Shown: piece by piece, positions 59,249 to 62,997 of the stretch
Layout: each line of letters begins with the position of its first letter
Numbering within the stretch: position 1 is the first letter of the stretch
Source of the DNA: Rickettsiales bacterium
GTDB taxonomy: Bacteria > Bacteroidota > Bacteroidia > Cytophagales > Cyclobacteriaceae
Assembly: GCA_002729235.1 (NCBI GenBank)
Contig: PBTY01000055.1
Coordinates: 141,983 to 205,982, forward strand
Direction: 5' to 3'
DNA: 64,000 nucleotides
Translations under genes and position numbers: made by a program
The notes under the pieces: model-generated
What the model was told of the DNA's origin: nothing
The model's database searches: none
What the model saw: the letters and a program-made list of their open reading frames with translations, nothing else

Positions 59249-59594
59249 ATACTACTTCGTTGATTGCCTGCTCCAGTACCTCAGAAGACTTTACATCAGA
59301 TTTACTGAGAAATTTATCAATAGGAATGTGAACGGCTTGGCTTCCGTCTAGGTGACCTGAAATCACAATTACTTTTGGGGGGTTGTCCAGAGTTTCCAAT
59401 GCCTCCATACCATCCAAATAAGGCATTTCAAGATCTAGTAAGAGAACATCTGGTTGTTCTTTCACACAAGCCATTATACCTTCTACCGGATTGGAATACG
59501 TTGAGATGAGCTCTGCAGACTTAATATCTTCAAAAAAGACTTTGAGCAGTTTTAAAAATAGCGCATCATCGTCTATAGCCAGGCACTTAATCAT
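59247..59594 (-). CDS. Single-domain response regulator
   Basis: A 115-residue receiver domain (CheY-like). Acidic pair IDDD at the start, the phosphorylated Asp in LLLDLEMP near residue 54, the Ser of VISGH and the Lys of FLSKSD are in place. There is no output domain, so it acts through partner proteins. No histidine kinase is adjacent. It is divergent from the second aldo/keto reductase gene. Confidence 0.9.
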   Translation of the reverse strand: MIKCLAIDDDALFLKLLKVFFEDIKSAELISTYSNPVEGIMACVKEQPDVLLLDLEMPYLDGMEALETLDNPPKVIVISGHLDGSQAVHIPIDKFLSKSDVKSSEVLEQAINEVV

Positions 59595-59667
59595 ATCTGA
59601 TTACCTAAGTTTTTTTGGTTCTTCGAAACGTTAATTGGCGGGACTGGTTACTAAATTACAACTAAAA

Positions 59668-60627
59668 ATGAATTATCAGATGAAAGATATCATATTCAGG
59701 AATAAAGACACGATGCCGATACTTGGATTAGGGACCTGGAAATCCGATAAAGGGCAAGTGTATAATGCAGTTAGAAAGGCAATTGAGGTAGGGTATCGTC
59801 ACATCGACTGTGCAGCCATATATGGCAATGAAGAGGAAATTGGTGAAGCTTTTCAAGATGCTTTCAAAGCTGGAGATGTCAAACGAGATGAACTGTGGGT
59901 GACTTCCAAATTATGGAATTCAGCGCATAAAAAAGATGCAGTCAAACCTGCTTTGGAAAAAACTTTGTCTGATTTGAAACTGGACTATCTGGATTTGTAT
60001 TTGATGCATTGGCCTATTGCGGTAAAAGAAACTGCTGGCTTTCCTTTCAAAGGAGATGATTTTCTCACACTGGAGGAGGTTCCTCTGGAGGAGACCTGGG
60101 AGGCGATAGTTAGTGGAAAAGATGCGGGGTTGTCCAAACACATTGGGGTTAGTAATTTTCATATTGCGAATTTGGAGTTGCTAGGGAAAATTGAATTTCC
60201 TGAGATGAACCAGGTGGAGATGCATCCATTACTACCTCAGCAAAAATTGGCGGACTATTGCAAGTCCAAGGGCATGCACATGACGGCTTATTCGCCGCTA
60301 GGGTCAATGGATAGGCCTGCTAGAGTTAAATCGGATAATGAGCCAATACTTTTGGAGCAGCCAGTCGTTCAAAAAATAGCCGAGAATCATTCAGCGACAC
60401 CTGCACAAGTTTTAATCAGCTGGTCCATTCATCGGGGAATTGCCGTGATTCCTAAATCCGTTAATGAGAAGAGAATTAAAGAGAATTTTGAGGCTTCTAA
60501 ATTAGAGTTGTCTATGCAGGAAATGGATCATATCAATGGAATTCAGTCCGGATTCCGTTTTATTGATGGTTCCATTTGGGTGGTTGAGGGTTCGCCCTAT
60601 ACTTTAGATGATCTCTGGGAGAAATAA
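59668..60627 (+). CDS. Aldo/keto reductase next to ion-channel gene
   Basis: A 319-residue reductase from ATG 59668 (ATG 59680 is also possible; the TTG at 59635 is unlikely). Tetrad: Asp47 and Tyr52 (HIDCAAIYGNEEEIG), Lys81 (VTSKLWN), His114 (YLMHWP). The phrase YLMHWP and AVIPKSVNEKRIKENFEA place it with AKR1-5 type enzymes (2,5-diketo-gluconate/aldose reductase-like) rather than the channel beta-subunit family AKR6. It ends 51 bases before the channel gene, on the same strand. Confidence 0.92.
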   Translation: MNYQMKDIIFRNKDTMPILGLGTWKSDKGQVYNAVRKAIEVGYRHIDCAAIYGNEEEIGEAFQDAFKAGDVKRDELWVTSKLWNSAHKKDAVKPALEKTLSDLKLDYLDLYLMHWPIAVKETAGFPFKGDDFLTLEEVPLEETWEAIVSGKDAGLSKHIGVSNFHIANLELLGKIEFPEMNQVEMHPLLPQQKLADYCKSKGMHMTAYSPLGSMDRPARVKSDNEPILLEQPVVQKIAENHSATPAQVLISWSIHRGIAVIPKSVNEKRIKENFEASKLELSMQEMDHINGIQSGFRFIDGSIWVVEGSPYTLDDLWEK

Positions 60628-60649
60628 ATCTCAATTGTTATGAAATAAT

Positions 60650-60679
60650 TATTTTGGTGGAAATTTTTCCACCAAAATA
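60650..60679 (+). promoter_or_regulatory. Perfect 30-base palindrome touching the channel start codon
   Basis: Left arm TATTTTGGTGGAAA (60650..60663), two T, right arm TTTCCACCAAAATA (60666..60679). All 14 pairs match. The last base of the right arm is the A of the channel's ATG, so in RNA the stem would cover the whole ribosome-binding region. In DNA it would be a good site for a dimeric regulator. It has no trailing T-run, so it is not a standard terminator. Confidence 0.8.
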
Positions 60680-61602
60680 TGAAGTTACAAAGCGCTGCAA
60701 ATCACTTTCTCCAAACAAATACTTTTCGAAATCTGGTTGTTTGGGCCATTATTTCATGCTCAATATTATTAGGGATAGAGACTTATTACCCTGCTAGTAA
60801 TCAGCTATTTATCTCTTTTGACGTCTTCTTCTCGATTTTCTTCCTGGCTGAATTATTGATAAGAATTGTTGCAAGCGGAAACATGATTCGCTTCTTTGGC
60901 TTATTCAAAAGAGTTAAAAATGAAGATGGATATTTTCAAATAAGAGTTGATGAAATAGGTTTTTGGAATTGGTTCGATTTTCTAATCGTACTCTTCACTA
61001 CAATAAGTCTATTCAAGCATATTGTCGAGCATCCAGAGTTTTTGATTGTCAGTCGTCTGTTTAGAATATTACGAATTTTCCGTTTGCTGGAAGTGAGCAA
61101 TGAGTTGAAGAATGTGGAGAAACGAATAATCAGTATTATCCCAACAGTCTTTTCGTTTGTGCTTCTTCTGGGAATACTCATTTACATTTATTCCATTATC
61201 GGGGTTTATTTGTTTGAACACAATGATTTTGGAATGGCAGATTTTTCTACCCTTCCGGGTGCATTAATGACGCTTTTTCAGTTGATGACTTTAGATGGAT
61301 GGACGGAAGTAATGAATGCTACTAGCTCCACGATCTATCAGGAGTGGATGGTGAAAGGCTACTTTGTCAGCTTTGTTATTTTCACAGCAATCATCAGTTT
61401 CAATATTTTCGTGGCAGTACTTACCTCTCAGGTTCATGAAAAAATGATTGCAGAAACCGTAAAACTCAAGGCCGATAAGAAAAAGAAGAGTAAGACAGTT
61501 GCAGAGGGGTCAAATCACTATTCGCAAGATCAAATGGATCTGGTGTTGGCAGAACTCAGAGAGCTGCGAAAAGAAGTTTCGGAACTGAGAAATGGAAAAT
61601 AA
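60679..61602 (+). CDS. Voltage-gated cation channel, BacNav/BacCav type
   Basis: A 307-residue single-repeat channel. S1 about 17-34 (LVVWAIISCSILLGIETYYP), S2 44-62, S3 97-113, S4 122-138 with Arg126, 129, 132 and 135 every third place (SRLFRILRIFRLL), S5 153-178, pore helix, filter TLDGWTE at 204-210, S6 224-250, then a Lys-rich link and a C-terminal coiled coil (281-304) typical for tetramer assembly. The filter differs from the sodium type TLESWxx, with Asp, Gly and a final Glu. N-terminus and start are fixed; the next Met is past S2. Confidence 0.93.
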   Translation: MKLQSAANHFLQTNTFRNLVVWAIISCSILLGIETYYPASNQLFISFDVFFSIFFLAELLIRIVASGNMIRFFGLFKRVKNEDGYFQIRVDEIGFWNWFDFLIVLFTTISLFKHIVEHPEFLIVSRLFRILRIFRLLEVSNELKNVEKRIISIIPTVFSFVLLLGILIYIYSIIGVYLFEHNDFGMADFSTLPGALMTLFQLMTLDGWTEVMNATSSTIYQEWMVKGYFVSFVIFTAIISFNIFVAVLTSQVHEKMIAETVKLKADKKKKSKTVAEGSNHYSQDQMDLVLAELRELRKEVSELRNGK

Positions 61603-61605
61603 AAA

Positions 61606-61625
61606 CCCTGACAGGATTGTCAGGG
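61606..61625 (-). terminator. Terminator after the SPFH gene, shared hairpin
   Basis: Perfect eight-pair stem CCCTGACA-GGAT-TGTCAGGG. A-rich sequence on its left gives TTTTTATTTT on the minus strand, so it ends the SPFH gene best; it also sits three bases behind the channel stop and could slow plus-strand transcription. Confidence 0.8.
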
Positions 61626-61665
61626 TCATAGTTAATCAAGCGGACCGGGTGAAGGTTAGGTTGCT

Positions 61666-62997
61666 TTAAAATCCTCCGTTGGCTCCTTTTGAGGTTTGCA
61701 GTTGCTTGGCCATTGCCGCACCAATCAAGCTTTCTAGTGGAGTGCCTCCTTTGCCGTCGCTTCCCATGATCATGGTCTCTGGAAATTTGATTTTGGCAAT
61801 TTCAGCTGCTACTCTTACATCTCTATCAAGCTCCATTTTCAACTTCACCTCTGGAGTGATACCAGCAGTTACTTTTTTCGCAATTTCATAAGCATCAGCA
61901 TCAGCTTGTACTTTTTTACGTTGTGCATTGAGTCTTTCAGTTTCCAGTGCTATCGCAGCAAGCTTTTTGTTGGTTTCTTCCTGCTTTAGCTTCGTTTCAA
62001 TGGCGATCAAGGCTTTCACCTGCTCTTTCTCTTGAGCTACACGCTCAGCTGCTTTGTCACGCTCACCTTCGGCAATGATTCGTTGTTGTGCGTCCTTAGC
62101 TGTCTCGACTTTCTGTTGCTCTAGTTGTCTTTTAGCAGATTCATCACGCTGTGCCTCAAGTCGTTGTTTAAAGGTTGCTTCCAGTTCCACATTGTCTACG
62201 ATGACCTGAGAGACAATAATGTTGTTCTCGCTGAGTTCGTGCTGTATCCTTTTCGGGACTCCGTTCTCCAGGATCTTCTTCACTTCGTAAGAAGTTTTGA
62301 TTTCCTTGATCCCTCGATCCTCATCCTCTTTGATTGGAGTGAATACAGTATCACGCTTTTCAATCTTCTCAACAGCATACGCTCCACCTTTCAATTGCTC
62401 TTCAAAAGCTTGTCTGAAGCTTTGGGCTTCACCAGAAATGTAATCTTGAGCCGCAAACATGTAAGCGGTGTTGATCAATTGCTCCTTTACCGTTGGTACA
62501 ATGGTGTTGTTGACCAGGTTGCTCATGGTTCGGAACTTTACAGCCAGGCTGATAAAGCTTTCCTCATCTCTTGGCAATTCAAATCTGGTAGAGACAAATC
62601 CAGAAGCGGTTACCTGATCAATGAATCGCAGTGGAATTGGTTTCATGACTCCACTTACTTCAGACTCATCGATTTCGATGTTCTGACCAACCACTTTTAC
62701 ATCAATGTACTTTTCCCACTTGTCAATTTTGGCAAATCCTCTCCACTTGATTCCCTGTTCCATTACTGCACTCATTTGTCCTGTCGGATAAACCAGTAAA
62801 TAATTGAATCCTCTATCGGCAAAAAAGAACAGCGAGTTCGTAAGCATCAGTAGAACCCCCAAAAACATAAACATCAACCCTTGTGCTCTTTTGAATTTTT
62901 TCATCCAGGCGAGGGATGAAACGGTGATGTCTATTCTGGAAATGATAAAAATCAAAAATCCAATCAAAAGAGCGATTACTCCGAAAAATGTTAGCAT
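61666..62997 (-). CDS. SPFH/Band 7 domain membrane protein (flotillin-like)
   Basis: A 443-residue protein with two membrane helices (residues 1-20 and about 42-62), an SPFH domain (about 65-265, with VEQLK-like helices), and a long coiled coil rich in Ala, Glu, Lys and Gln (QQKVETAKDAQQRIIAEGER), ending in a short Gly-rich tail. Such proteins form ring-like or raft-like membrane assemblies. It converges with the channel gene over a short gap. Specific flotillin subtype is not clear. Confidence 0.85.
   Translation of the reverse strand: MLTFFGVIALLIGFLIFIISRIDITVSSLAWMKKFKRAQGLMFMFLGVLLMLTNSLFFFADRGFNYLLVYPTGQMSAVMEQGIKWRGFAKIDKWEKYIDVKVVGQNIEIDESEVSGVMKPIPLRFIDQVTASGFVSTRFELPRDEESFISLAVKFRTMSNLVNNTIVPTVKEQLINTAYMFAAQDYISGEAQSFRQAFEEQLKGGAYAVEKIEKRDTVFTPIKEDEDRGIKEIKTSYEVKKILENGVPKRIQHELSENNIIVSQVIVDNVELEATFKQRLEAQRDESAKRQLEQQKVETAKDAQQRIIAEGERDKAAERVAQEKEQVKALIAIETKLKQEETNKKLAAIALETERLNAQRKKVQADADAYEIAKKVTAGITPEVKLKMELDRDVRVAAEIAKIKFPETMIMGSDGKGGTPLESLIGAAMAKQLQTSKGANGGF

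Follow-up and report, generated by a model that had tools for sequence, protein, structure and literature searches.

RNA thermometers are hairpins that mask the start region of a gene, and Bacteroidota ribosomes seldom rely on Shine-Dalgarno pairing. Pairing in start regions of Flavobacterium johnsoniae was lowered, slightly more strongly where genes are highly translated, while an A at position -3 favoured translation and structure in the AUG region went with lower translation (excerpts of PMC6847099). The start codon of the replicase gene of phage MS2 is held in a hairpin whose structure keeps this downstream gene off; the structure is opened when ribosomes translate the upstream gene, and the coat protein binds the hairpin (PMC9894550, in the part on this hairpin). 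In E. coli, protective hairpins of the malEF type are stable, lack a U-tract and lie between two parts of a message (passages of PMC5927463).

Here, we describe a perfect inverted repeat that ends on the start codon of a voltage-gated channel homologue, behind an aldo/keto reductase gene, in a 64-kb stretch of DNA (the whole stretch that was analysed, hereafter the window; Table 1). We propose that a hairpin masks the channel start in a two-gene mRNA and holds channel synthesis below reductase synthesis, a reading that we consider probable, if only just. None of the literature matches listed gave an account of this element.

Table 1 Features around the channel start, in positions of the window.
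Feature	Positions	Strand	Basis
Aldo/keto reductase (PF00248), upstream gene; stop TAA 60625-60627	59668-60627	+	ORF, Pfam
A/U-rich spacer from reductase stop to hairpin; possible standby region	60628-60649	+	sequence
Two-codon mini-ORF ATG AAA TAA in the channel frame, adjoining the stem; speculative	60640-60648	+	sequence
Left arm TATTTTGGTGGAAA	60650-60663	+	sequence, repeat listing, RNA fold
Two-nucleotide spacer TT between the arms; RNA loop AUUU = 60663-60666	60664-60665	+	
Right arm TTTCCACCAAAATA, last base A of the start codon	60666-60679	+	sequence, repeat listing, RNA fold
Channel gene, 307 aa, single Ion_trans domain (PF00520), pore sequence TLDGW	60679-61602	+	ORF, Pfam
Stem between the convergent channel gene and 443-aa gene (61666-62997)	61604-61627	unassigned (.)	sequence, terminator scan

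The reductase and channel genes lie on the + strand with a gap of 51 nt. The channel start codon (ATG at 60679-60681) is secure because its frame is closed on the 5' side by the TAA at 60646-60648, with no ATG, GTG or TTG from there to 60679. The terminator scan found no T-tailed + strand terminator in the gap, which also contained no consensus promoter and no TAnnTTTG. The spacer was weakly paired in part in a 73-nt fold and more paired in a 201-nt fold. The channel sequence matched solved chains of voltage-gated calcium and sodium channels; in the sequence search, the best-matching solved chains for this single-domain protein were four-domain calcium channels. Four weaker channel matches were found in the same genome, of which two scored identically, and one of these paralogues also had a start hairpin (-10.6). 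The reductase gene adjoins a receiver-domain gene in G000 (the genome of the window), G001, G002, G003 and G004, and does not do so at the G005 homologue.

The repeat at 60650-60679 was perfect (14+2+14), with 14 of 14 positions complementary, and A60679, the first base of the start codon, was its final base; both were as the original prediction had described them. It was also the longest perfect palindrome in the window, as had been noticed, among 20 inverted repeats listed with arms at most 60 nt apart. Across 240 kb of the contig, there was one other perfect repeat with 14-nt arms, a terminator-like pair of A-tract and T-tract. Perfect repeats with arms of at least 11 nt numbered 14 in these 240 kb, against 0.33 on average over three Markov shuffles, and the shuffles held none with arms of at least 13. 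Repeats of such length are thus not due to chance, because the shuffles yielded almost none. Within 340 kb there were 19 perfect repeats with arms of at least 11 nt, 12 of which started with AAA and finished with TTT in the fashion of terminators. Compared to those 12, the channel-start repeat has its tracts reversed, with T on the left and A on the right, and finishes on the start codon. The reported lack of a T-tail held on the + strand, which runs on as TGAAGTTACA, and the U-tract 3' of the stem on the gene's strand that marks an intrinsic terminator was absent; on the - strand, the terminator scan listed the repeat as terminator-like, with the tail ATTATTTCAT. The sequence TTTTGGTGGAAA occurred exactly in the window solely as the two arms. 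A search for other copies, which had been proposed together with the repeat, found no second place for the 26-base core in the same genome at up to three mismatches.

As RNA, the realistic stem has 13 bp and a predicted energy of -16.6 kcal/mol (41 nt), and 0 of 200 shuffles folded as well. The 73-nt window fold reached -18.8 (0/200 shuffles as good), and the hairpin persisted in the 201-nt window fold, where 5 of 200 shuffles were as good. In these predicted folds, the stable hairpin contains or abuts the start codon, as a start-masking hairpin would. A ribosome that ends reductase translation at 60627 would cover the message to about 60639, a footprint that we assume, and would thus stop ~10 nt short of the stem. 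When the upstream sequence was blocked through 60639, the predicted fold stayed intact (-17.2), and when it was blocked through 60658, the fold was lost (-3.8). The original idea that translating ribosomes of the reductase gene govern the folding is therefore unsupported as stated, the stem being whole with 60639 blocked. The stem was predicted to be stable from 4 to 55 °C, which makes an RNA thermometer unlikely; there was no melting step in a biological temperature range and no match of Rfam covariance models at the hairpin (59500-62000, E up to 5). Three Rfam matches elsewhere in that region were all below their gathering scores.

Among 279 genes in 340 kb, the channel had the most stable fold of the region from -35 to +6 (-16.6 kcal/mol; mean -3.4, sd 3.1). 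When imperfect stems of up to 60 nt closing at -5 to +2 were allowed, it ranked 18th among 1391 starts in 1.83 Mb, a scan in which starts were the ATGs of the longest ORFs, so that some are wrong. The channel stem thus stands out for being both short and perfect and not on energy alone, as it ranked first of 279 yet 18th of 1391. Hairpins of -14 kcal/mol closing on starts numbered 35, against 48 at in-gene positions and 13 in shuffled upstream regions. We therefore rejected a genome-wide class of start-closing hairpins defined by energy, as there was no excess over in-gene positions.

A second perfect repeat in this genome (18+11+18) runs right up to the ATG of a DUF1648 gene (G000:C114:88075-88121, L115:8075-8121), with a copy at G000:C7:8824-8870. 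It lies 15 nt behind a co-directional gene whose product has a secretion-system sorting tail, and it folds at -22.3. The DUF1648 homologue of G004 (59%), which is located elsewhere, had no such hairpin. A weaker stem (10+7+10, G000:C4:272578-272604) with outer arms TATTTT...AAAATA stands 24 nt past a co-directional ORF, and the ATG of a 491-aa gene follows it after 4 nt. These two cases are suggestive and do not amount to a demonstrated class. Upstream of G000:C7:126528, a long A/U-rich stem, bulged by 2 nt on its 3' side, runs into the ATG of a 944-aa ORF (-16.3 kcal/mol). Contigs C7 and C114 both carry the DUF1648 locus (99% protein identity) and overlap in sequence, so the scan of 1391 starts counted this case twice; C1 and C114 gave the same channel match scores. 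Stretches on C7, C114 and C1 seem to appear twice in a redundant or mixed assembly.

Protein searches in 59 relatives, 390 family genomes and 390 order genomes, sets that overlap, found a single close channel orthologue (91%); the remaining matches were 55% or less. This orthologue belongs to G004 (taken as Marinoscillum sp. MSM7), the sole relative found with the same reductase-channel pair. It is split on two contigs (91% identity over residues 1-221, 78% over 217-305) and stands behind the same reductase as in the window. Four-fold synonymous sites differed at 49 of 68 positions in the channel and 60 of 90 in the reductase, near saturation. The G004 block reads ATTATTTTGGTGGGAAATTTCCACCAGATCATGATCATT. 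Its dyad has shrunk from 14+14 to 6+6, with TGGTGG/CCACCA alone kept and the half-site spacing changed from 8 to 7. In its predicted RNA, ten inner pairs are retained, two of them by G-U wobbles, and nine outer pairs are gained beyond a two-base bulge, so that the lower stem encloses the entire AUG. The 73-nt fold of G004 was -21.1 (0/200 shuffles as good), and 6 of 200 shuffles equalled its inner hairpin alone (41 nt). When the core was kept constant and the flanks were shuffled, 248 of 5000 sequences folded as well as the window and 45 of 5000 as well as G004.

Absence of the palindrome from relatives with the same gene order had been named as grounds against the original prediction; in G004, the one such relative found, the predicted RNA structure was retained. 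The comparison of arms that had been suggested gave a divided answer. Pairing held in 24 of 26 pair cells of the window/G004 alignment, two of them by G-U changes on one side (slid controls reached 65% at best), and these two sequences offered no double-sided change, while two pairs of the window register were broken in G004. Since G004 keeps the RNA fold while the dyad decays, the two sequences, free of double-sided covariation, favour an RNA element over a dimer operator. The part of the original prediction in which the ribosome site is hidden in the mRNA is thus the one that the predicted folds favour. Other gaps common to the window and G004 were conserved too (z 11.5 to 112, n = 12 measured, three very short gaps being omitted), and the hairpin gap scored lowest, at about 9.5. 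Gap conservation by itself therefore says little, and we rejected sequence conservation as proof because those 12 gaps all scored higher.

The genus comprises six genomes, and the four besides G000 and G004 had weak channel matches only and no channel orthologue. In G002, where the proteins neighbouring the locus were 86-96% identical to those of the window, the reductase directly precedes a stem resembling that at 61604-61627, followed by the counterpart of the gene that comes after the channel in the window. Because this downstream stem is shared with G002, it suggests that the channel lies in the transcription unit of the reductase. No channel stood behind the reductase homologues of G001, G003 and G005 (in G003, over the 209 bases of contig left behind it). 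We also compared 22 distinct homologues of 41-53% identity (27 rows, of which 5 were loci fetched twice). Their start regions (-35 to +6) folded at -8.4 kcal/mol or weaker, and with longer imperfect stems 1 of 22 reached -13.2, compared to -15.8 in the window and -12.8 in G004. A reductase match was found upstream of none of the 22 (0.2 to 4 kb of upstream DNA each).

A structure model found nothing beyond the window and G004 loci in the 6 genus genomes (E up to 1; 150 of 180 to 223 first-look candidates scored in three of them) or in 295 family genomes (E up to 0.01; 19 first-look candidates scored per genome among the rows listed). In the same genome, the pattern TGGTGGN3-9TTTCCACC matched once in forward and twice in reverse orientation, and one of these matches was not the channel-start repeat; 177 of 390 family genomes had at least one match, a raw count. 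A regulator with several targets is disfavoured because there was no second copy and no further structure-model match, results with which a single-target regulator would be compatible.

In the reading that we prefer, the repeat would act as RNA rather than DNA, and the channel gene would be transcribed as part of the reductase's unit. The 13-bp hairpin would cover the stretch just 5' of the AUG together with its A, 30S subunits would rarely load at the channel start, and from one message the channel would be made far more slowly than the reductase. Selection may then favour low or conditional synthesis of the channel. A ribosome with its front edge at about 60658 would open the hairpin, and in a very improbable version of such opening, a leader-peptide switch, post-termination re-initiation at AUG AAA UAA (60640-60648) would license channel synthesis. 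The mini-ORF starts 12 nt past the reductase stop, directly 5' of the stem; the front edge of a ribosome re-initiating on it, which we presume from the footprint to lie at about 60658, would melt the stem, and the 18+11+18 hairpin before the DUF1648 gene would count as a related device. G004 has an ATG near the place of the mini-ORF, from which the reading is open into the channel.

Start masking has its main rival in an intercistronic decay element, a hairpin that stops 3'-5' exonucleases so that the reductase mRNA outlives the channel part, as in malEF, with little direct effect on initiation. We consider it unlikely, yet it too would lower channel output, it is compatible with start masking, with which it may act together, and the retention of structure across two genomes fits it. 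In E. coli, a stable hairpin that lacks a U-tract was reported immediately ahead of the stabilised part's 3' end in 26 of 34 upstream-stabilised cases, but 17 of these 26 structures lie inside the downstream coding sequence, and the authors limit their model to organisms with similar RNases (all from passages of PMC5927463). The decay element also leaves unexplained why the stem ends on or encloses the start codon in both genomes. Binding of a dimeric repressor or activator to the dyad over the channel start is improbable. The dyad is perfect in the window and its TGGTGG/CCACCA half-sites are kept in G004, but in this one orthologue neither the full symmetry nor the spacing survives. The ideal repressor site of the original prediction is weakened by this decay and by the missing second site at up to three mismatches; nor was there a further structure-model match among the first-look candidates scored in the genus (6 genomes) and the family (295 genomes), a consensus promoter in the gap to be controlled, or, in the adjacent receiver protein, a Pfam match to anything besides the receiver domain.

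An internal promoter would place a -7 element in the left arm and start the channel mRNA in the loop, so that the hairpin would never form in that mRNA. The Bacteroidota -7 element is TAnnTTTG (parts of PMC7366714), from which TTATTTTG and TATTTTGG of the left arm are each one mismatch away, and these are kept in G004. However, in 88 divergent upstream regions TAnnTTTG was enriched (25 against 7 for the reversed pattern) and the left-arm variants were not (TTnnTTTG 18 against 17; TAnnTTnG other than TTTG 18 against 21), and by eye no -33 element common to both genomes lay at a fitting distance, so that we regard this promoter as quite improbable. Least probable of all, and hardly to be expected, is a repeat due to chance or to a recent inverted duplication without function. 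Template switching can create perfect repeats, and a perfect 18+18 repeat at another locus of the genome has no counterpart at the G004 homologue; against this stand the low chance rate in the shuffles and the fact that the structure outlasted near-saturating synonymous divergence.

If start masking is right, the locus would show translation control in a clean and natural form, within a phylum whose ribosomes seldom rely on Shine-Dalgarno pairing: a simple stem on a bacterial voltage-gated channel homologue has the start codon in its last pair. How such ribosomes handle a start that is closed could readily be tested on it, and the other case in this genome would hint that stems of this sort may arise repeatedly where one gene closely follows another.

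Like the MS2 replicase hairpin, the stem described here holds the start codon of a downstream gene, in a predicted structure. Compared to MS2, ribosomes that terminate on the reductase would, on the assumed footprint, halt about 10 nt short of the stem. The likeness to RNA thermometers lies in the masking of the start region, and the difference in a stem predicted to have no biological melting step. As in the malEF type, a hairpin that is predicted to be stable and lacks a U-tract would lie between two parts of a message, but here it ends on the next start codon. Both the window and G004 have the favourable A at -3, consistent with F. johnsoniae; the relation between structure and translation in that species is a statistical trend over many genes, whereas the channel start carries one strong hairpin.
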